This document shows, one piece after another, positions 1 through 42,561 of a stretch of 43,929 nucleotides of DNA (position 1 is the first letter of the stretch; every line of letters begins with the position of its first letter). Under the pieces are notes generated by a model, which saw only the letters and a program-made list of their open reading frames with translations, was not told where the DNA came from and made no database searches. The DNA is from Nitrospiria bacterium. Its GTDB lineage: Bacteria; Nitrospirota; RBG-16-64-22. The DNA lies in assembly GCA_919903025.1 (NCBI GenBank), contig CAKKSE010000031.1, positions 1,680 to 45,608 on the forward strand, in the 5' to 3' direction. A program made the translations under genes and the position numbers.

Positions 1-123
1 GCGACCCGCCCTACGAAAAGCCCTCGTAGGGCAGCACACCGTGCCTGCCCTGCACTTAGGCGGGTTCGGCGACCCGCCCTACGAAAAGCCCTCGTAGGGC
101 AGCACACCGTGCCTGCCCTGCAC
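1..123. repeat. 68-bp direct tandem repeat with internal hairpins
   Basis: Bases 1-55 recur exactly at 69-123, giving a period of 68; the second copy diverges after 123. Each copy holds a 9-bp inverted repeat (GCCCTACGA / TCGTAGGGC) with a 7-nt loop. It also holds a second, bulged stem built on GGGCAGCAC and GTGCCTGCCC. The array may continue to the left of the window. No gene is visible in 1-172. It looks like a dispersed, hairpin-forming intergenic repeat. Confidence 0.85.
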
Positions 124-10258: not shown

Positions 10259-10277
10259 GCCGCCCGCCGCCACCCCC

Positions 10278-10317
10278 ATTCACCGCTTCACCCATTCACC
10301 CATTCACCGATTCACCT
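10278..10317. repeat. Octamer tandem repeat ATTCACCN, locus a (5 units)
   Basis: The units are ATTCACCG, CTTCACCC, ATTCACCC, ATTCACCG and ATTCACCT, contiguous with period 8. On the minus strand the tract reads NGGTGAAT and supplies the last three codons and the stop of the GNAT gene (GTG AAT CGG TGA). Confidence 0.9.
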
Positions 10318-10768
10318 GTTTTTCCCAAATCATCGCCGCCTCGTCGCAATCCGGGAACTTCACGCACTTCACGCAATCGCCCCAGACCTTGTGAGGCAGC
10401 TCCGACTTGTCGGCGATCCTGAACCCGAGCTTACGGAAGAACTCCGGCACGTACGTCAGGACGAAAACCATCTGGATTCCCATCCGGTCGGCGTCGGCCA
10501 GGCAAGTGCCGGCGAGAGTCCGGCCGATGCCCCGGCCCGTGAATCCCTCAGCCACGGCGAGCGATCGGAGTTCGGCCAGCCCTTCCCACGTCACGTGGAG
10601 GGCCGCCGTCCCGATGACTTGCCCCTCTTCCTCGGCCACGAGGAAGTCCCGGACGGAGTCGTACAGCTCGCTGAAAGAGCGCGGAAGGAGGAGCTCCTTC
10701 TCGGCATACCCCCTGAGAAGGCTGTAGATGGCGGGAATGTCCCGGGGCAGGGCAGGGCGAATGGACAT
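10304..10768 (-). CDS. GNAT N-acetyltransferase, short N-acetylglutamate synthase-like
   Basis: This 154-residue GNAT protein starts from MSIRPALPRD. The acetyl-CoA loop is GFTGRGIGRTLAG after LRSLAVAE. The C-terminal block LPHKVWGDCVKCVKFPDCDEAAM is the signature of the short, stand-alone ArgA-like N-acetyltransferases that start arginine synthesis in several bacteria lacking a full ArgA. Its three cysteines (DCVKC, PDC) could bind metal. An in-frame upstream start at 10783 is possible. The final residues QVNR and the stop are encoded by the octamer repeat. Arginine genes are not nearby, so the pathway role rests on family membership alone. Confidence 0.85.
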   Translation of the reverse strand: MSIRPALPRDIPAIYSLLRGYAEKELLLPRSFSELYDSVRDFLVAEEEGQVIGTAALHVTWEGLAELRSLAVAEGFTGRGIGRTLAGTCLADADRMGIQMVFVLTYVPEFFRKLGFRIADKSELPHKVWGDCVKCVKFPDCDEAAMIWEKQVNR

Positions 10769-10847: not shown

Positions 10848-10957
10848 TTTCCCCCTCACCCCATCCCTCTCCCCACAGGGGAGAGGGGGAACCAACGAAT
10901 CGTCCTATCCTTTTCTCCTCGCCCCCTTTAGGGGGAGAGGACAAAGGTGAGGGGGTT
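10848..10957. repeat. GC-rich palindromic repeats, copies 2 and 3
   Basis: Two tandem copies fill the 198-bp gap between the GNAT start and the stop of the first FadL gene. One is centred near 10875 (CCTCTCCCC-ACA-GGGGAGAGG with a CCCCCTCACC flank). The other is centred near 10930 (CCCCCTTTAGGGGG with GAGAGG and GGTGAGGGGG flanks). They could terminate or insulate transcription; no U-rich tail is obvious. Confidence 0.75.
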
Positions 10958-13687: not shown

Positions 13688-13799
13688 CCCCCCTCACCCA
13701 GCCCTCTCCCCCGCACCGGGGGAGAGGGGAAAAAACAGGGTCCCCCTCCTTCATCTCTCCTCTCCCCCTCTGGGGGGAGAGGATCAAAAGGTGAGGGGG
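13688..13799. repeat. GC-rich palindromic repeats, copies 4 and 5
   Basis: Two copies lie back to back in the 235-bp gap between the second FadL gene and the SCP2-like gene: CCCTCTCCCCC/GGGGGAGAGG near 13700-13730 and CCTCTCCCCC/GGGGGGAGAGG near 13759-13782, the latter followed by AAAAGGTGAGGGGG. Their sequence and order resemble copies 2 and 3. Confidence 0.75.
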
Positions 13800-13838
13800 T
13801 TGATGAGGATGTCATGGATACCATGCTTCCAGCAGCAG

Positions 13839-21154: not shown

Positions 21155-21194
21155 TTTCCCCTCTCCCCTGGCGGGAGAGGGTCAGGGTGAGGGG
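21155..21194. repeat. GC-rich palindromic repeat, copy 6
   Basis: TTTTCCCCTCTCCC-CTGGC-GGGAGAGGG with a GTCAGGGTGAGGGGG flank lies between the OsmC and DoxX genes. It has the same core as the other copies and a short stem of about 8-9 bp. Confidence 0.7.
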
Positions 21195-21204
21195 GATCTC
21201 TCGC

Positions 21205-25660: not shown

Positions 25661-27423
<1,763 letters not shown>

Positions 27424-27429
<6 letters not shown>

Positions 27430-27493
27430 CTATTCACCGATTCACCCAATCCCCCCTCCCCCCCCCTTTGTCAAAGGGGGGGGAGGGGGGATT
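27424..27493. repeat. Octamer repeat locus b (3 units) plus GC-rich palindrome 7
   Basis: ATTCACCT, ATTCACCG and ATTCACCC occupy 27424-27447 and overlap the possible atpA start codon. Directly beyond, 27448-27493 is a near-perfect stem of about 20 bp (C6-T-C9-TTTG pairing with CAAA-G8-A-G6) with one bulged base. The whole 80-bp gap between atpF and atpA is repeat. Confidence 0.85.
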
Positions 27494-28918: not shown

Positions 28919-28922
28919 GCTT

Positions 28923-28954
28923 CTTCACCCATTCTCGGATTCAACCATTCCCGT
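28923..28954. repeat. Degenerate octamer repeat, locus c
   Basis: The units CTTCACCC, ATTCTCGG, ATTCAACC and ATTCCCGT keep the 8-bp period but have decayed. They lie directly upstream of the atpC start codon. Confidence 0.6.
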
Positions 28955-28956
28955 AG

Positions 28957-29011
28957 ACCCCCTCACCCTCCCCTCTCCCCCTTTGAGGGGGAGAGGGGAG
29001 GGTGAGGGGGT
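28957..29011. repeat. Perfect 25-bp hairpin between atpE and atpC (palindrome 8)
   Basis: Two perfectly complementary 25-nt arms (28957-28981 and 28987-29011) enclose the loop TTTGA. The arms combine the CCTCTCCCC core and the CCCCCTCACCC flank found in the other copies. It lies in the ATPase mRNA just after the atpE stop codon. It could protect mRNA ends, set relative expression, or stall ribosomes. No U-run follows, so it is not a standard terminator. Confidence 0.92.
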
Positions 29012-29012
29012 G

Positions 29013-29916: not shown

Positions 29917-30000
29917 CCCTCCTTTGTAAGGAGGGGCAAGGGGAGGTAGAGATAACCAAGGCATCTACCCCTCCCTACCTCCCCTTACAAAGGGGAGGAG
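29917..30000. repeat. Inverted repeat between atpI and atpK (palindrome 9)
   Basis: CTCCTTTGTAAGGAGGGG near 29925 and its inverted relative (CCCCTTACAAAGGGGAGGAG, 29981-30000) flank a 20-bp core containing GGTAGAG...CTACC. It can form an imperfect hairpin of about 30 bp. It is related in composition, but not identical, to the other GC-rich palindromes. Confidence 0.75.
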
Positions 30001-30010
30001 TTCTTTTCCT

Positions 30011-30050
30011 ATTCACCTATTCACCTATTCACCGATTCACCGGCTCACCG
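30011..30050. repeat. Octamer repeat, locus e (5 units)
   Basis: ATTCACCT (twice), ATTCACCG (twice) and GCTCACCG are contiguous. The tract overlaps the 3' end of atpI and encodes its final GEPVNR and stop on the minus strand. Confidence 0.9.
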
Positions 30051-31954
30051 GCCCGCCTGAGCGGCGCGAACGGGCGGCCGCCGGGTTGATAGAACTTTCC
30101 GAAGAACTCCACATAATGAAGACGAAGCGATTGGATCGCGGGGTCCACGATCCCCACGACGAGCCCGAGCGTGTGAAAGAGAAACCCGACGAGAACGCCG
30201 AGCGCCGCGTACTCGATCCTCGCCGCCAGTGTGTTCGCCACGAAGGCGATGTACACGGAGGCGACGCCGAACGCCATGATCCGGGCGTACGAAAGAACGT
30301 TGCTCAGAAGCCCAAGCAGTTCGATTGGGGCGACGAACCCGGCCGACAGAACGAGAACGACGAGAAGAACGAGCGATCCCGCCGCGCCCGCCTGGAAAGC
30401 CCACTGAGACCATATCCGCAGGTCGTACCCGGCGGCGATCACGCCCCACATGACCACGAACAGGATCTTCGCGCCCCTGCCGACCGCCTCAGCCCTATCG
30501 CCCTCCCGGACCGACGCCACGAAACCCAGCGAAAGCCCCAAGACCAAGTGAACGACTCCGATGACGATCGAGACCTTGAGAAAGAGCAGGATCGCTTTCG
30601 ACCGGTCGAACAAGACGGGCTCCAGCCCCGCCCGGCGGCCCAGCTCGCCGAAGAACTCTCCGAACAGGAGGCCGAAGACAGCCGCGGAAACGGCGCAGAC
30701 GGCGAGGACGAAGAAGGCGTCCCGGGCCAGGGCGCTCTTCCTGTAGCGGCGCCGAAGGACCAAGGCAAGGGCAAAGGCGAGGAGGCCGTGGCCGATGTCG
30801 CCCAGGATCAGGCCGAAGAAGACGGGAAAGAATACGGCGAGAAAAGGCGTCGGGTCGATCCCGCGATACCGCGGAAGCGGGAGAATCGAGAGGAGGACCT
30901 GGAAAGGCCGGATCATCCGCGGATTCCTGAGGAGCACCGGCGCCCGAATCGAGTCCCCGCGGACGAACGGAAGGGTTTCGAGGACGACCCGCCCTCCGAA
31001 CGCGGCGGCCAGCGCGCGCCGAAGCGGCTCGACCGATTCCGAAGGGACCCATCCGTTCGCCACGAAAGCGCTCCGCGTCTCGAGGAACGAAGCCTCGGCC
31101 CTCAGCATTTCCAACGCGTTCTCCACTTCCCGGCGGAGGGCCGACACCCACCCTCGATGCCGCTCGCCGATAAGCCGGATCTCGCCCTCGACCCCCGCCA
31201 GCATCGCGGGAAGCTCCGCCTGCCGGACGGCGAGGTATTGGAGCGCCTCCACCAGAGGCTTGTCCGCCACCGTCCCCGGGAGCCTTAGCTCCGGAATGCT
31301 CTCTTCGAGCAGAAACCCGCGAATCTTCGCGACGTCGCTCTTCGAGACGACGATCAGGACGGCGGCCGTGCCCGCGTCCAGATCCACGGTGAACATCTCG
31401 TATTCGCCCCGCGTGAGGCGCCCGAGCCTTTCCTCGATGAGATCCAGCACCGCGGCCTGATCGCGCCGGACCGTGAGGCCGACGTACGCCACGTCGCGGG
31501 GAGCGCTCAGCGCGGAAAGGATGGGACCGAGGGCCGTGAGGATCGCCTGGTATCGGGCCAGGATCTCCATCTCGTCGCGGTACGCGGTTCGGAGGTTGGA
31601 GAGCGAGACGGCCTCTTCAAGGAGGTCTTCGGCCGATCGGACGAGCGGCTCCAGATCGGCCGCGAGGTCCAGCAATTCTTCGGCCCTTCGGAGCGGCGGG
31701 CCCAACTCTCCACGCGACAGGGAGGGGAGCAGGAGCGAGAGCCGGCGAAGGGTGTCGCCCAGCCGCTCGAGCTGGACCCGGCGGTTTCGGGCCTTCTCGT
31801 CCGGCTCGGCCGGCACGAGGTGCCGGTCCTCCGGCGAAAAACGAAAGGAGGGGGATTCCAGGTGGACGATTCCCGCCGCCTGGAGGAAAGCCGCGGCATG
31901 GTCCCTGAGCGACTTTGGCCCGATGACTCGCGTCTTTGCCATGGGAACGATCAT
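30029..31954 (-). CDS. atpI: A/V-type ATP synthase subunit I (a-subunit)
   Basis: Subunit I forms the stator ion channel facing the K ring. It has 641 residues. The cytoplasmic half (1-330) starts MIVPMAKTRVIGPKSLRDHAAAFLQAAGIVHLE. The membrane half has about seven or eight helices, including FLAVFFPVFFGLILGDIGHGLLAF and LLSNVLSYARIMAFGVASVYIAF, where the Arg in SYARIM is the essential channel arginine. The ATG at 31954 overlaps the atpH stop (ATGA). Its C-terminus PVNR comes from the octamer repeat. Confidence 0.94.
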   Translation of the reverse strand: MIVPMAKTRVIGPKSLRDHAAAFLQAAGIVHLESPSFRFSPEDRHLVPAEPDEKARNRRVQLERLGDTLRRLSLLLPSLSRGELGPPLRRAEELLDLAADLEPLVRSAEDLLEEAVSLSNLRTAYRDEMEILARYQAILTALGPILSALSAPRDVAYVGLTVRRDQAAVLDLIEERLGRLTRGEYEMFTVDLDAGTAAVLIVVSKSDVAKIRGFLLEESIPELRLPGTVADKPLVEALQYLAVRQAELPAMLAGVEGEIRLIGERHRGWVSALRREVENALEMLRAEASFLETRSAFVANGWVPSESVEPLRRALAAAFGGRVVLETLPFVRGDSIRAPVLLRNPRMIRPFQVLLSILPLPRYRGIDPTPFLAVFFPVFFGLILGDIGHGLLAFALALVLRRRYRKSALARDAFFVLAVCAVSAAVFGLLFGEFFGELGRRAGLEPVLFDRSKAILLFLKVSIVIGVVHLVLGLSLGFVASVREGDRAEAVGRGAKILFVVMWGVIAAGYDLRIWSQWAFQAGAAGSLVLLVVLVLSAGFVAPIELLGLLSNVLSYARIMAFGVASVYIAFVANTLAARIEYAALGVLVGFLFHTLGLVVGIVDPAIQSLRLHYVEFFGKFYQPGGRPFAPLRRAGEPVNR

Positions 31955-32322: not shown

Positions 32323-32345
32323 CGAAGAAGCCCAGAATGGGACAT

Positions 32346-32377
32346 GGGTGAATAGGTGAATCGGTGAATGGGTGAAT
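32346..32377. repeat. Octamer repeat, locus f (4 units, inverted)
   Basis: GGGTGAAT, AGGTGAAT, CGGTGAAT and GGGTGAAT on the plus strand, the opposite orientation to the other loci. With locus g it forms an inverted pair spanning the trpS-atpH gap. Confidence 0.9.
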
Positions 32378-32419
32378 AGGGAAGGACAGGAAAAGAGCGA
32401 GTCCTCGTCTTGTCTTCCG

Positions 32420-32483
32420 ATTCACCGATCGACCGATTCACCGATCGACCTATTCACCGATTCACCGTTTCCCCGATTCAGCT
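32420..32483. repeat. Octamer repeat, locus g (8 units)
   Basis: Eight units, ATTCACCG alternating with ATCGACCG-type variants, then TTTCCCCG and ATTCAGCT. It lies just after the trpS stop codon. The two-unit alternation (ATTCACCG-ATCGACCN) suggests duplication of a 16-bp unit. Confidence 0.88.
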
Positions 32484-32485
32484 TT

Positions 32486-33481
32486 TCATGTCAGTCCCAT
32501 CGCCTCCCGCACTTCGCGCATCGTCTCCCGGGCGACGCCGCGAGCCCGATCCGTCCCGGCCCGAGCCGCTTCCTCCACGTCGGACCAGCGAGAGGCGAGC
32601 GACCGGCGGCGCTCCACAAGGGGCCCGATCCCGCGCTCGATGCCTTGAATCAGGATCTTCTTGCAGTCGACGCACCCGATCCCCGCGCGCCGGCATTCCT
32701 TGTCGATCACGGCGCGATCCTCTTCACCCGTGAAGATCAGGTGGAGGCCGAACGCGGGACAGACATTCGGGTCTCCCGGATCGTTTCGCCGCTTCCGGGC
32801 CGGATCGGTCACCATGACCTTGATCTTCGCGCCCATCTCCTCGACCGTCTCGGAGAGGTAGATCGCGTTGTCGTAACTCTTGCTCATCTTGCGCCCGTCA
32901 AGACCCGGCACCTTGGGGTACGCCGTGAGCAGCGCCTCCGGCTCCGGGAAGACGGGCCGGTAGAGGTGGTTGAACCGGCGGGCGACTTCCCGCGTGAGCT
33001 CCAAGTGCGGAAGCTGGTCGATCCCGACAGGGACGGCGTCGGCTTTGTAGATCAGGATGTCCGCGGCTTGGAGCAGGGGATACCCGAGAAAGCCATAAGT
33101 CGTCAGGTCGCGGTCGGCAAGCGCTTCCTGCTTCTCTTTGTACGAGGGAACACGCTCCAGCCAGGGCGTGGGCGTGAACATCGAGAAGAGAAGATGAAGC
33201 TCGGCGTGCTCTAGGATCCGGGACTGGACGAAGATCGTGCACCGGCCGGGATCGAGACCCGCCGCGAGGAAATCGATCAGGATCTCGCGCGTCGCCGCCG
33301 GAATGTCGGACGGGTTCTCGTACGCGGTGGTGAGAGCGTGCCAGTCGGCCACGAAGAAGAAAGAATCGTACTCATCCTGGAGCCGGACCCAATTCTGGAG
33401 CGCGCCCAGGTAGTTCCCCAAGTGGAGCCGGCCCGTGGCCTGCATTCCGGAGAGAATCCGGCGGCGGGACGCGCCGCTCAT
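32486..33481 (-). CDS. trpS: Tryptophan--tRNA ligase, with Fe-S-type cysteine motif
   Basis: This class I synthetase charges tRNA-Trp. It has 331 residues from an ATG overlapping the M50 stop (ATGA). The HIGH-type motif is HLGN at 20-23 (TGRLHLGNYLGA) and the KMSKS at 198-202. The C-terminal half has four cysteines at 241, 263, 270 and 273, i.e. C-x21-C-x6-C-x2-C. That nearly matches the C-x22-C-x6-C-x2-C motif that binds a [4Fe-4S] cluster in the Thermotoga-type TrpRS. It is the last gene of the carboxylase/protease run. Its 3' end is followed by octamer repeats. Confidence 0.95.
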   Translation of the reverse strand: MSGASRRRILSGMQATGRLHLGNYLGALQNWVRLQDEYDSFFFVADWHALTTAYENPSDIPAATREILIDFLAAGLDPGRCTIFVQSRILEHAELHLLFSMFTPTPWLERVPSYKEKQEALADRDLTTYGFLGYPLLQAADILIYKADAVPVGIDQLPHLELTREVARRFNHLYRPVFPEPEALLTAYPKVPGLDGRKMSKSYDNAIYLSETVEEMGAKIKVMVTDPARKRRNDPGDPNVCPAFGLHLIFTGEEDRAVIDKECRRAGIGCVDCKKILIQGIERGIGPLVERRRSLASRWSDVEEAARAGTDRARGVARETMREVREAMGLT

Positions 33482-37664: not shown

Positions 37665-37693
37665 ATCTTATGGAAGGGGCAAATTGGAGTCAA
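37665..37693 (-). promoter_or_regulatory. Sigma-70 promoter for the carboxylase operon
   Basis: On the minus strand TTGACT (37693-37688) and TAAGAT (37670-37665) have a 17-bp spacer. The predicted start site near 37657 leaves a leader of about 120 nt before the GTG at 37536. Confidence 0.6.
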
Positions 37694-37702
37694 GAATAAA
37701 CC

Positions 37703-37731
37703 TTGTGAGTCGAGCGAATATTCCGTATATT
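37703..37731 (+). promoter_or_regulatory. Sigma-70 promoter for xerD
   Basis: TTGTGA (37703-37708) and TATATT (37726-37731) have a 17-bp spacer. The start site near 37738 precedes the GTG at 37762 by about 24 nt. It is back to back with the carboxylase promoter. Confidence 0.6.
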
Positions 37732-37761
37732 TTTCCAAAGGATACGGAGGAAACAGGGATC

Positions 37762-38649
37762 GTGGATACCGCCGTCGACGCTTTCCTTTCGTACCTCTCG
37801 GTCGAGAAAGGGCTCTCCCAGTCGACGCTCGACGCCTATTCGCGCGATCTCGTCTCGTACGCGAGGTTCCTCTCGGACGCCGGCGCCCCGATAGATCGAG
37901 GCGTCGAGAGACGGCTCGTCGCCGAGTATGTCGCCAGAGGGCGAAGAGCCGGTCTCTCCTCCGCGACGGTGTCCCGGCGTCTGTCGGCCATCAAGGGCTT
38001 CCACCGATTCCTCGTCCGCGAAGGGCTGGCCGCGAGCGACCCCACGGACCAGGTCGAGAGCGTCCGGCGGCGGCTCCCCCTTCCCAAGGTGCTCTCGCTC
38101 AACGAGGTGGAGCGGCTGCTGAGTGTCCCCGATCCGGCCACGCCCGCCGGCCTCCGGGACCGCGCCATGATCGAGATCCTCTATGCCTCCGGCCTTCGCG
38201 TCAGCGAGCTGGTCGGGCTCGACCAGAGATCGGTCAACCTCGAAGCCGGCTACCTGATGGCCAGGGGAAAAGGCTCCAAGGAACGTGTCGTGCCCCTCGG
38301 GGAACATGCCGTCCGCTGGGTCAAGACCTACCTTGACGAAGCCCGACCGCGGTTCGCCAAGGGGAGGGTCTCGCCCGCCCTCTTCATCACGTCCCGCGGA
38401 AAGCCGATGTCTCGCCAGCGGTTCTGGGGGCTGATCCGTTCCTACGCGCGCCGCGCGGGGCTTAAGCAGGTCCCCTCGCCGCACACCCTCCGACACTCGT
38501 TCGCAACCCACCTCCTGGAGCGGGGATCGGACCTCCGGTCCGTCCAGGCGATGCTGGGTCACGCGGACATCTCGACGACGCAGATCTACACGCACGTGGA
38601 CAGGGAACGGCTGATCGCCATCCATCGGAAACATCATCCGAGGGGATGA
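37762..38649 (+). CDS. xerD: Tyrosine recombinase XerD
   Basis: This 295-residue XerC/D recombinase resolves chromosome dimers at dif with a partner. The GTG at 37762 (GGAGGAAACAGGGATC upstream) matches the family length; in-frame codons continue to 37684. The N-terminal core-binding domain is followed by the catalytic set in family order: Arg146 (GLRVSELVGL), Lys170 (GKGSKE), His241 and Arg244 (HTLRHSFATHLL), His267 (GHADISTTQIY) and Tyr276. The numbering closely tracks E. coli XerD. It ends 11 bp before the left arm of the 112-bp inverted repeat. It is probably a housekeeping gene, though its closeness to the repeat is notable. Confidence 0.93.
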   Translation: MDTAVDAFLSYLSVEKGLSQSTLDAYSRDLVSYARFLSDAGAPIDRGVERRLVAEYVARGRRAGLSSATVSRRLSAIKGFHRFLVREGLAASDPTDQVESVRRRLPLPKVLSLNEVERLLSVPDPATPAGLRDRAMIEILYASGLRVSELVGLDQRSVNLEAGYLMARGKGSKERVVPLGEHAVRWVKTYLDEARPRFAKGRVSPALFITSRGKPMSRQRFWGLIRSYARRAGLKQVPSPHTLRHSFATHLLERGSDLRSVQAMLGHADISTTQIYTHVDRERLIAIHRKHHPRG

Positions 38650-38659
38650 AAGAAAGCGA

Positions 38660-38771
38660 TCAGCGATCAGCAGTCAGCGGTCGGCTTTCAGCTAAAAGAG
38701 CTCTGCATTTCGTTCTTGCTGACTGCTGATCGCTGAGTGCTGAATGCTTCCCTATCTTGCTGACCGCTGAC
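38660..38771. repeat. 112-bp inverted repeat, left arm
   Basis: The arm matches the reverse complement of 41457-41568 at 111 of 112 positions. It is built from heptamers of the TCAGCNN type in both orientations. The outer 19-mers (38660-38678, 38718-38736) are perfect reverse complements, so the arm alone can form a hairpin with a 39-nt loop. It ends 24 bp before the TTG start of the CCA-transferase fusion gene. Confidence 0.97.
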
Positions 38772-38795
38772 GGCTGACCGCTCCGGAGCTGTTCA

Positions 38796-41444
38796 TTGGA
38801 AATCATCACAACCCATACGAACGCCGACTTCGATTCCCTGGCCGGGATGGTGGGGGCCCAGAAGCTCTACCCGGACGCCCGGATCGTCTTCTCCGGATCG
38901 CAGGAGAGGCCGCTTCGCGACTTCTTTCTGCGGTCTCCCGCCGCAAGGGCTGTCTTGCCCGCGCGGCTCAAGGATATCGACTTCTCGGCCGTCACGCGCC
39001 TCGTCCTCGTCGACACCAAGTCCCGGAACCGCATCGGCCGCTTCGCCGAGATGCTGGACCGGCCCGATCTTCTCGTCCACATCTACGACCACCATCCGTA
39101 TCTCGAGGACGACATCCGCGGCGAAGTCGAACGGGTCGAGCCGGTCGGCGCGACGGCCACCTTGATGGCTGAGATACTGGCGGAAAGAGGGATCGGCTTG
39201 ACACCCGACGAGGCGACGATCCTCATGCTGGGAATCTACGAGGAGACCGGCTCGCTCACCTTCGCGTCGACGACCCCGCGCGACCTGGAAGCGGCCGCCC
39301 GGCTCCTTCGCCAGGGGGCCGACCTCAATGTCGTGGCCGACTTCATCATCCACGAACTCGACGCGGAGCAGGTCGACCTGCTGAACGACTTTCTCCACAG
39401 CGCCCGGACGATCGCGGTCGGCGGCGTCCCCATCCTGGTCGCCACGGCCGAGCGGGCCCACTACGTCGGCGACATGGCCCTCGTCGTCCACAAGCTGCGC
39501 GACACGGTGGGGGCGGGCGTCGTGATCGCCATCGCCCAGATGGAGGACCGGGTCCACGTCGTGATCCGGAGCCGGATGCCGGAGGTCGACGCGGGGACAC
39601 TGGCCGCCGTCGTCGGAGGCGGAGGGCATTCAACGGCCGCGTCGGCGACCGTCCGGGACGCCGCGCTCTCCGGCGTCGAGGCCCGTCTCCTGGACCGGCT
39701 CCGGGCCACGGCCCGGCCTCTCATCCGCGCTCATCAGATCATGACCGCCCCGGTCAAGACGATCGAGGCCCATCGGACGCTTGCCGAAGCCAACGATCTC
39801 ATGACCCGGTACGGCGTCAATGTCTTTCCCGTCGTCGAACCCGCCGGGAACGGCGGCCGGCTGATCGGCCTGATCTCGCGCGAGACCGTCCAGAAATCGA
39901 TCTTCCACGCCCTCGGAAACGAGCCCGTCGAGACGTTCATGCGGACGGACGTCCGGACCGCCTCGCCGGACACGCCCCTCTCGGAGATCGAGGAGAGCAT
40001 GATCGAGCACAACCAGCGCTTCATGCCCGTCCTCGGGAACGGACAAGTCATCGGCGCGATCACGCGCACCGATCTCCTTCGAGCCATGCACGATTTCTTC
40101 CTCCGGGCAACGACGCCCGAGGGCCTCCCCTTGGAGGAAGGGTTCCCCTCACGGGCGATCCGGCGGAACGTCGCCTCGCTCATGGCCGAGCGCCTCCCCG
40201 GCCCTCTCTTTCTCTTCCTTCGCTCGATCGCCGCCCTCGCCGACCGCATGGGAACGCGGGTCTACCTCGTCGGCGGGATCGTCCGGGACCTTTTTCTCGG
40301 CATCGAAAACCTCGACGCCGATCTCGTCGTCGAGGGAGACGGAATCGCGTTCGCCGAGGCGATCGTCCGGGAGGTCCCCGGCCGCGTCCGTCCGCACAAG
40401 CCGTTCGGCACGGCCGTCGTCGTCCTCGATTCGGGCCTGAAGATCGACGTCGCGTCCGCCCGGACGGAAGTCTACGAGACGCTCGCCGCTCTTCCGACGG
40501 TCGAGCTCTCGTCCATCAAGAAGGACCTCTACCGCCGCGACTTCACGATCAACACGCTCGCCATCCGGCTGAGCGAGGGCGAATTCGGCCAGCTCCTCGA
40601 CTTCTTCGGCGGACGGCGGGACCTCAAAGAACGGACGATCCGCGTTCTGCACGATCTCTCTTTCGTCGAGGACCCGACGCGCGTCTTCCGGGCGATCCGC
40701 TTCGAACAGCGCTTCGACTTCAAGATCAGCCGCCACACGAAGCGGCTCGTCGAGACGGCCGTCGCGATGGACATGTTTCACCGGCTGTCCGGCCCCCGCC
40801 TTTACGGTGAGCTCTGGCTCATCTTCGAGGAGGCCGACCCGGCGAAGACCGTCCAGCGGCTCAGGGACCTCGATCTCCTGAGGTTCATCCACCCGCGCCT
40901 CGACGTCTCCGCGGAGAAGATTCCCCACCTGGCGCGCGTCAAGGAGGCTCTCGCCTGGTACGCTCTCCTCTTCCAGGAACCGCCCGTCCGGGCTCCCATG
41001 GTCTACATGACCGCTCTCTTGGACCAACTGGAGGAAGCCGACGTTCTGGAAGTCGCGGCCCGGCTCTCCATCTCTCCGACGGACGGGGGAATCCTTCTCC
41101 TGCCCCGGCGAACGGCCCCATCCGTTCTCAGGACGCTCTCGCGCCGTCCTCCGCCCGCCCCGTCCGTGGTTTACGAGGCCCTCTCCCCGGTCCCGATCGA
41201 AGGGCTTCTCTATCTCCTCGCCAGCGCCCGGCCGAAGAGCGCGCAGAAGACGATCTCCGAGTTCATCACGCACGGCCGGTTCGTTCGCCCGCCGATCTCC
41301 GGCGACGATTTGACGGCGATGGGACTCGCGCCCGGACCGATCTACCGACAGATCATGGCCGAACTGCGCGCCGCGGCTCTCGATGGGCAATTGAAAGGGC
41401 GCGACGAGGCAATCGCGTGGGTAAAGGAGAAATACGGTCAATAG
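38796..41444 (+). CDS. DHH phosphoesterase / CBS / CCA-adding nucleotidyltransferase fusion
   Basis: This 882-residue fusion has four parts. A DHH-type phosphoesterase (1-160) has NADFDSLA and DHHPY at 98-102. DHHA1 (about 200-305) has GGGGHSTAASA. A CBS pair spans about 314-435. A class II tRNA nucleotidyltransferase/poly(A) polymerase begins at about 485, with VGGIVRDLFLG and the catalytic LDADL (Asp507, Asp509), then FTINTLAIRL and the RNA-binding part. It probably adds or repairs tRNA CCA ends, with CBS control by adenine nucleotides and a DHH domain that may degrade short RNAs. The TTG at 38796 follows GGAG by 7 nt. The gene is tightly bracketed by the 112-bp inverted repeat. Confidence 0.92.
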   Translation: MEIITTHTNADFDSLAGMVGAQKLYPDARIVFSGSQERPLRDFFLRSPAARAVLPARLKDIDFSAVTRLVLVDTKSRNRIGRFAEMLDRPDLLVHIYDHHPYLEDDIRGEVERVEPVGATATLMAEILAERGIGLTPDEATILMLGIYEETGSLTFASTTPRDLEAAARLLRQGADLNVVADFIIHELDAEQVDLLNDFLHSARTIAVGGVPILVATAERAHYVGDMALVVHKLRDTVGAGVVIAIAQMEDRVHVVIRSRMPEVDAGTLAAVVGGGGHSTAASATVRDAALSGVEARLLDRLRATARPLIRAHQIMTAPVKTIEAHRTLAEANDLMTRYGVNVFPVVEPAGNGGRLIGLISRETVQKSIFHALGNEPVETFMRTDVRTASPDTPLSEIEESMIEHNQRFMPVLGNGQVIGAITRTDLLRAMHDFFLRATTPEGLPLEEGFPSRAIRRNVASLMAERLPGPLFLFLRSIAALADRMGTRVYLVGGIVRDLFLGIENLDADLVVEGDGIAFAEAIVREVPGRVRPHKPFGTAVVVLDSGLKIDVASARTEVYETLAALPTVELSSIKKDLYRRDFTINTLAIRLSEGEFGQLLDFFGGRRDLKERTIRVLHDLSFVEDPTRVFRAIRFEQRFDFKISRHTKRLVETAVAMDMFHRLSGPRLYGELWLIFEEADPAKTVQRLRDLDLLRFIHPRLDVSAEKIPHLARVKEALAWYALLFQEPPVRAPMVYMTALLDQLEEADVLEVAARLSISPTDGGILLLPRRTAPSVLRTLSRRPPPAPSVVYEALSPVPIEGLLYLLASARPKSAQKTISEFITHGRFVRPPISGDDLTAMGLAPGPIYRQIMAELRAAALDGQLKGRDEAIAWVKEKYGQ

Positions 41445-41456
41445 GGAAAGTCAGCG

Positions 41457-41568
41457 GTCAGCGGTCAGCAAGATAGGGAAGCATTCAGCATTCAGCGATC
41501 AGCAGTCAGCAAGAACGAAATGCAGAGCTCTTTTAGCTGAAAGCCGACCGCTGACTGCTGATCGCTGA
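41457..41568. repeat. 112-bp inverted repeat, right arm
   Basis: Reverse complement of 38660-38771 with one mismatch (GCTGAATGCTG versus GCTGAGTGCTG). It begins 12 bp after the stop codon of the CCA-transferase fusion gene. Together the arms enclose 2685 bp holding that one gene. Confidence 0.97.
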
Positions 41569-41664: not shown

Positions 41665-42561
41665 TCAACTCTTCTTCTTGTGGTCATCGTCATCGTCATC
41701 GTCATCGTCGTGGTCGTCGTCTTTCTTCGCCGTCTCGCTCTTCTTGACCTCGACCTCCTTCGCGAGGATAGCCGTCGGTCCGGTAAGCGTCCCCTCGACC
41801 TCGACGGTCGCTCCAACGATAGGCGTCCCTTCGAACTTCGTCGATGAATCCGTCGTCACGGTGTACGTCGTTCCGCCCGAAGACACGGTGAGAGGCGAGA
41901 GCGAGGTGATGGTCCCCTTGATCTCGATCTTCCCAGAGCCCGACTTCTTCTCGCCGCTCTTCTCGTGGCAGTCGCTGTACGTCCCCTTCTGGCTGAACGC
42001 CTCCATGTGGAGGATCAGACCGCCCGACGCGCCCGCGACCGTGATCTTTCCTTCCACTTCGAGCTTGCCGTCCTCTTCGGTCGCCGTGACCGGGTTCGAG
42101 AGGAACATCCACGATCCGCTGGACGTCGTCTTCTCGAACTTGAGCTGGTACTGCCCGGCCGCAACTCCCGAGAACTCGAACTTGCCGTTCGGGCCTGTCG
42201 TCGCCGTTCCCGCCAGTGCGCCGCCGGGGTAGCCGAGCAACGTAACGGTGATCCCCGACGCCGGCTGGGACCCGTTCATCTGGACACACCCTTTCTTGTC
42301 GGCGATCGCCTCGCTCGGCGAGAGGAGGCCGCCTACGAACGTTCGGGCAAGCTGGTAGTACCGCTCGGGCGCAGGAGTCAGGCCGGCGACCGATGAATCC
42401 TGCGTGACCGTGCCGCCGATCGCCGCGTTGCCGCCGGACGGACCGGCTGGAGAAGACCCGCCCTTCCCGCCGCAAGCGCCCAAAGCCAGCGCCATCCCGA
42501 CGACCGTAACCGGCATTGCAAACCGCTTCATCATTCCGGAGCTAAACCCACGGTGAGACAT
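41665..42561 (-). CDS. Lipoprotein with carboxypeptidase-like and DUF5666-like domains and an Asp-rich tail
   Basis: The ATG at 42561 (after GGAGGTGGAGGGTCT) gives 298 residues; ATG at 42534 or 42531 is possible. A lipobox LGAC places the lipidated Cys at 30, followed by a Gly/Ser/Pro linker. About 95-150 is a carboxypeptidase regulatory-like beta domain (SGITVTLLGYPGGALAGTATTGPNGKFEFSGVAAGQYQLKF). About 205-270 is DUF5666-like (IKGTITSLSPLTVSSGGTTYTV). The C-terminus is KKDDDHDDDDDDDDDHKKKS, possibly metal binding or a charged surface tag. It is predicted to sit on a membrane surface, outer leaflet unproven. It is probably co-transcribed with the 33-residue peptide. Confidence 0.85.
   Translation of the reverse strand: MSHRGFSSGMMKRFAMPVTVVGMALALGACGGKGGSSPAGPSGGNAAIGGTVTQDSSVAGLTPAPERYYQLARTFVGGLLSPSEAIADKKGCVQMNGSQPASGITVTLLGYPGGALAGTATTGPNGKFEFSGVAAGQYQLKFEKTTSSGSWMFLSNPVTATEEDGKLEVEGKITVAGASGGLILHMEAFSQKGTYSDCHEKSGEKKSGSGKIEIKGTITSLSPLTVSSGGTTYTVTTDSSTKFEGTPIVGATVEVEGTLTGPTAILAKEVEVKKSETAKKDDDHDDDDDDDDDHKKKS

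Follow-up and report, generated by a model that had tools for sequence, protein, structure and literature searches.

Why should a single conserved gene be bracketed, almost up to its start and stop codons, by a near-identical inverted repeat? The question is raised by a 43,929-nt stretch of DNA from a Nitrospiria bacterium (the window; all coordinates are positions of this whole stretch), in which two repeat arms enclose a gene whose protein combines DHH, DHHA1 and two CBS domains with a poly(A)-polymerase/CCA-transferase head. The original prediction described a 112-bp inverted repeat matching at 111 positions, with 24 bp before the start codon and 12 bp after the stop codon. That repeat is real, and the distances are true for it, but it is a stretch inside a fuller alignment of 119 bp with two mismatches (117/119 positions in inverted orientation, 98.3% identical), whose gaps to the enclosed gene are 17 bp on the start side and 5 bp on the stop side (Table 1). 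In the reading that we consider probable, the arms are gene-less copies of a mobile NNTCAGC hairpin family flanking a stationary gene, with an S23-type element as their parent.

Two copies of a dispersed hairpin family

Each arm is itself palindromic: a core of about 25 bp separates an array of NNTCAGC heptads from one of GCTGANN heptads, and a further heptad array lies past TTCCCTATCTT. This nested structure is common to both arms, and their outermost units differ. Since the next-best copies in the genome that holds the window (G000) reach just 68-80% identity over ~80-118 bp, the match between the arms is far above chance. Neither arm carries an open reading frame (ORF), and an Rfam scan gave no match at gathering score, only sub-threshold chance hits. 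The palindromic make-up from 7-bp units was missing from the original prediction, as were the many further family copies. The search for such copies that it had called for returned 96 partial or full matches in G000, where a strict TCAGC palindrome pattern has 71 matches, overlapping ones included, and its reversed control none. Many of the copies run from near AGGGAAGCTNTCAGC to near GACAGCTATC and sit within arrays of the octad GGTGAATN.

For comparison we used two sister-species genomes of the same genus (G001 and G002); all genomes compared are drafts. The orthologous spacers of several family members are empty (L008, L010 and L018 in G001, L011 in G002), and others are occupied by hairpins built from other units: GATTCACC for L025, GGGGAAAC for L028 and GGTGAATN octads for the window spacers. 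Because its members are absent or replaced in this way, the TCAGC hairpin family has been mobile recently. The arms are two copies of this dispersed, non-autonomous family, which has the traits of a miniature inverted-repeat transposable element (MITE): it is short, gene-less and dispersed, has inverted ends and shows insertion polymorphism. At the G001 site orthologous to L011 (L186, G001:C107:6640-11110), about 3.6 kb of extra sequence lies between the flanks of the hairpin site.

The gene between the arms has a different history. Gene order is identical in G001 and G002, running from pyruvate-carboxylase-like genes through xerD, the enclosed gene and the DUF5666 gene to an ANTAR gene, and in all three genomes the enclosed gene lies between xerD and the DUF5666 gene in one orientation. 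Its DNA is 93.6% identical to that of G001 and 90.0% to that of G002, and its protein finds a match in 41/41 genomes of a phylum sample. In G001 both spacers beside it hold GGTGAATN octad hairpins, not heptads; in G002 such a hairpin stands at the xerD spacer, and the other spacer holds octads and an assembly gap. The comparison with relatives that had been suggested thus recovers the same gene in the same place and orientation, with the TCAGC arms replaced by octads.

The original prediction had offered two readings of the segment. The first is an invertible cassette, in which recombination between the arms would flip the gene relative to its upstream region. Long, near-identical inverted arms beside a tyrosine recombinase gene would suit such a cassette, and this gene does adjoin the left arm, albeit at 10 bp rather than the 11 bp given; however, the orientation is constant in G000, G001 and G002, the xerD gene keeps its place beside the gene in species without these arms, and the arms come from a dispersed family and are not a dedicated recombination site. 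We regard inversion as extremely unlikely. The second reading, a composite transposon in which two repeat elements move the gene between them, is barely conceivable. It was right about the two non-autonomous elements and draws on the tight bracketing of the gene, but there is no gene-carrying cassette: the gene is found phylum-wide and occupies the same syntenic position in two sister species without these arms, and the synteny already contradicts transposition. Both readings are without support because synteny and orientation are kept and the gene is present throughout the phylum. The enclosed gene is conserved and stationary and is not part of a mobile unit, and the comparison supports the conclusion that the arm pair neither moves nor flips it, as far as the compared genomes can show.

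The near-identity of the arms had been ascribed to recent duplication or gene conversion, and here the data agree. Because the arms are 98.3% identical, above the 93.6% and 90.0% of the enclosed gene between species, they most likely became alike only after the species split, when one arm was copied locally to the other or the two were evened out by gene conversion. An arm duplicated by the assembler would also give near-identical arms, and repeats are indeed hard to assemble in a draft as fragmented as G000 (230 contigs). Such an artefact is, however, most improbable, given the two internal mismatches, the different outermost units of the arms and the repeats that both spacers hold in G001 too.

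S23 genes between inverted arrays

One TCAGC array pair in G000 brackets not a gene-less core but a PF05635 (S23, four-helix-bundle) gene, at G000:C103:2959-3330. All eight PF05635 genes of G000 were inspected; inverted repeats of 7-8 bp closely flank every one, and the unit differs from gene to gene. The S23 loci that we read in this genome lie between protein-coding or tRNA-like genes, not inside 23S rRNA. When the upstream flanks of the eight genes were scored all-against-all with the reverse-complemented downstream flanks, each gene's own pair came top in all eight rows and columns (scores of 16-33; off-diagonal mean 11.8). The weakest end match of the eight is that of L037, an S23 element with GTTGC-type repeats between two tRNA-like genes.

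The arrangement extends well beyond this genome. We picked 80 named relatives by similarity to one TCAGC-class S23 protein (a single-protein scan); they span Chloroflexi, Planctomycetes, Cyanobacteria, Deltaproteobacteria, Acidobacteria, Nitrospirae, Actinobacteria and others. Tandem TCAGC stands upstream at 60/80 of these loci and tandem GCTGA downstream at 63/80, with both at 55/80, as compared with 5/466 and 2/474 control windows at the same loci; arrays in the opposite orientation occur at 12 and 6. In a wider set, 94/110 S23 genes score above the 99th percentile of control positions. A stronger test than this distance control is permutation among S23 loci: across 34 loci from G000 and the phylum, the matched-pair scores sum to 659, versus a maximum of 433 in 20000 permutations. 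Inverted arrays of 7-8 bp units at both ends are thus a general feature of S23 genes, a result that we did not expect. No account of heptad-array-bracketed S23 genes was found in open-access full text, and an earlier description elsewhere is possible.

Moreover, the unit follows the protein lineage. For the same 34 loci, protein identity correlates with unit similarity (Mantel r = 0.44, 0/5000 permutations), a correlation that shows above ~55% protein identity. TCAG heptads accompany 3/3 S23 proteins at least 62% identical to the TCAGC-class S23 of G000 and 0/30 of those at 50% or below. Related S23 proteins share a unit even across phyla, and unrelated ones have different units. At the spacer that holds the TCAGC-class S23 in G000, the S23 of G001 and G002 belongs to another lineage (36% identity) and has GGTGAATN octad ends; the nearest sampled relatives of the G001 protein (59-60%) are two S23 from other families with GGTGAAN ends. 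A single intergenic site thus carries two S23 lineages with different units in sister species (L216 and L217 vs L032), which suggests preferred sites or replacement.

The dispersed repeats themselves show a similar association. Triple octads number 138 in G000, 613 in G001 and 363 in G002, and TCAGC palindromes 71, 31 and 37, respectively, so that the dominant repeat goes with the resident S23 class in each, although three genomes are too few for statistics. Among 148 genomes, TCAGC palindromes occur in 7/8 that encode a near relative of the TCAGC-class S23 versus 21/140 others (Fisher p = 3e-5, without phylogenetic correction). The heptamer TAACTGA was considered as a variant of the TCAGC class and dropped, as at least two of its units stand at just 1/80 TCAGC-class S23 loci. 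Additional units (GGTCAAT, ATTGAAA) lie by heptad hairpins or S23 genes at L005, L014 and L036, a hint of more unit classes.

A possible parent of the hairpins

The S23 elements differ between the sister species, as the hairpins do. In G001 and/or G002, five of those in G000 (L031, L033, L034, L035 and L038) are missing, and the orthologous spacer there contains octad arrays, some other sequence or next to nothing. Four S23 pairs gave ratios of nonsynonymous to synonymous substitution rates (dN/dS) of 0.05-0.25, and the S23 protein is therefore maintained by purifying selection. The S23 protein of G000 matches PDB 2GSC; a Xanthomonas S23 structure is cited as a pentamer of four-helix bundles (PMC4990558), and PF05635 resembles the retroelement protein Avd (PMC10053308).

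Given the bracketing of S23 genes and the match between unit and lineage, the arms look like gene-less derivatives of a TCAGC-class S23 element. Their probable parent would be a lone PF05635 gene with inverted ends of the NNTCAGC heptad, as at G000:C103:2959-3330. We suggest that the S23 protein recognises hairpins, of DNA or RNA, by its own unit, and that with the help of host enzymes it may promote the copying into intergenic spacers of whatever hairpin carries this unit, so acting in trans on gene-less hairpins. In the window, the near-identity of the arms would date from after the sister species diverged, when local transposition or gene conversion made one arm a copy of the other. The ground for this proposal is established: the dispersal of the family, its polymorphism between sisters, the S23 bracketing, the unit-lineage match across phyla, purifying selection and the S23-free orthologous spacers. 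The role of S23 as the driver of mobility we infer from these sequence patterns.

Several points weigh against this proposal. To our knowledge S23 has no known catalytic domain. Spacer alignments of G000 with G001 and G002 gave no clean target-site duplication, and the hairpin core is not convincingly derivable from an S23 gene. The distance control described above is mostly coding sequence, not other intergenic spacers. TCAGC hairpins occur in G001, G002, G003 and G059, which have no close S23 relative, so that for these one must suppose parents since lost or a different mobiliser. Finally, the heptad hairpins are often nested, at a similar junction, within octad arrays, so that their spread could also be due to ordinary recombination between arrays. 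An origin of the core from an S23 leader and start codon was considered as well; the likeness of AACGAAACACGA in L004 to AACCAAACACGATGCGG upstream of some S23 genes is mere resemblance, and we do not claim it.

The last two of the opposing points are what favours the main rival explanation, in which S23 is a passenger or another user of the arrays and plays no part in the spread of the hairpins; this would proceed by slippage and by ectopic recombination or gene conversion between the short tandem arrays of the spacers. It accommodates both the nesting and the hairpins of genomes without a matching S23, but it leaves unexplained why matching inverted arrays stand at both ends of S23 genes and why the unit follows the S23 protein lineage across phyla; we consider it unlikely, though not negligible. 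Mobilisation by a Y1 transposase, as for repetitive extragenic palindromic sequences and their associated transposases (REP/RAYT), might be expected from the three Y1_Tnp genes of G000. No tandem heptads or octads were found around the five Y1 loci inspected, however, which makes this explanation very unlikely. A reverse transcriptase was likewise set aside as a mobiliser, with no RVT_1 match in G000.

The window holds further repeats (Table 1). The GGTGAATN/ATTCACCN octad is the second repeat class of the genus and also forms S23-element ends in G001, G002 and other families. A palindromic-looking repeat and a perfect direct repeat complete the list.

Table 1. Features of the window, by position in the 43,929-nt stretch.
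Feature	Position	Strand	Remarks
Left arm, TCAGC-heptad hairpin element	38660-38778	-	Reverse of the family consensus
Left-arm heptad array 1	38660-38692	+	TCAGCGA TCAGCAG TCAGCGG TCGGCTT TCAGC
Left-arm hairpin core	38693-38717		Reverse complement AAGAACGAAATGCAGAGCTCTTTTA
Left-arm heptad array 2	38718-38747	+	GCTGACT GCTGATC GCTGAGT GCTGAAT GC; complementary to array 1
Extra heptad array beyond TTCCCTATCTT	38759-38779	+	Nested junction CAGCAAGATAGGGAAGC present in both arms
Right arm, TCAGC-heptad hairpin element	41450-41568	+	Family orientation AGGGAA..NNTCAGC..core..GCTGANN..AGCTAT
Enclosed gene, DHH/DHHA1 + CBS + CCA-transferase (PolyA_pol) fusion, 882 aa	38796-41444	+	TTG start at 38796
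xerD-like tyrosine recombinase gene	37684-38649	+	Conserved neighbour in both sister species, 94% and 87.5% aa identity
DUF5666/SdrD_B-like protein gene	41665-42561	-	Conserved downstream neighbour
Octad GGTGAATN/ATTCACCN arrays	10259-10333, 27413-27471, 28920-28962, 29992-30066, 32344-32380, 32401-32499		Some inverted pairs
40-bp palindromic-looking repeat, five copies	1851-1890, 10918-10957, 13762-13801, 21158-21197, 28973-29012		CTCTCCCCC..GGGGGAGAGG..GGTGAGGGGG
Perfect 55-bp direct repeat	1-55 and 69-123		Window start

Relation to known repeats and elements

The nearest known kind of element is the intervening sequence (IVS) with an S23 ORF in the 23S rRNA of Leptospira and Coxiella, which has terminal inverted repeats, occurs sporadically and has been called a selfish element; a role of the S23 ORF in its mobility has been hypothesised (PMC4990558). 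The elements described here likewise consist of a lone S23/PF05635 ORF between terminal inverted repeats. In contrast to the IVS, which is removed from 23S rRNA by RNase III, they lie in intergenic spacers and not inside 23S rRNA, their ends are arrays of S23-lineage-specific 7-8 bp units, and gene-less hairpins of the same unit are dispersed in the genome.

Heptamer repeats have been described elsewhere. The heptad stem-loops in P6b of the Nostoc trnL intron (class I TDNGATT, class II NNTGAGT), whose origin was stated to be unknown (PMC4476775), resemble the present hairpins in their 7-bp units with fixed and variable positions and in the repeated replacement of one class by the other at the same site; they differ in being located in an intron, with no S23 link reported. 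For the TAACTGA repeats of Beggiatoaceae and Cyanobacteria, horizontal spread was suggested with no evident mechanism (PMC4679880). These and the cyanobacterial short tandemly repeated repetitive (STRR) sequences are also intergenic heptamer arrays of patchy distribution, but the TAACTGA repeats are described as direct repeats, and that paper makes no mention of S23. MITEs, REP/RAYT sequences and bacterial interspersed mosaic elements (BIMEs) share with our family a short, gene-less, palindromic, dispersed and intergenic character. No transposase-type parent was found here, however, the candidate parent encoding a four-helix-bundle protein, and the Y1 loci inspected are free of the repeat arrays, in contrast to REP/RAYT. 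Avd of the diversity-generating retroelements has a homologous four-helix-bundle fold (PMC10053308), although such retroelements differ in that no reverse transcriptase was found in G000. Among the papers found in open-access full text, none links heptamer repeats to S23 genes.

Although the S23/IVS proteins have long been known from split 23S rRNAs, we know of no function for them, nor of an origin for the heptamer repeats that Nostoc, Beggiatoaceae and other bacteria carry. That repeat unit and S23 lineage evolve in step ties the two together, and the bracketing of S23 genes may explain the origin of a long-puzzling kind of bacterial repeat. Tentatively, S23 elements could be an unrecognised and widespread class of mobile element, with one four-helix-bundle nucleic-acid-binding protein, inverted ends of lineage-specific 7-8 bp units that the protein recognises, and gene-less hairpins moved in trans; they could then be the source of heptamer and octamer hairpins and of heptamer repeats across bacteria. 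A mobile element with no recognisable transposase or reverse transcriptase gene of its own would then have been spreading through many bacterial phyla and reshaping their intergenic regions, among them the flanks of housekeeping genes like the one enclosed here.
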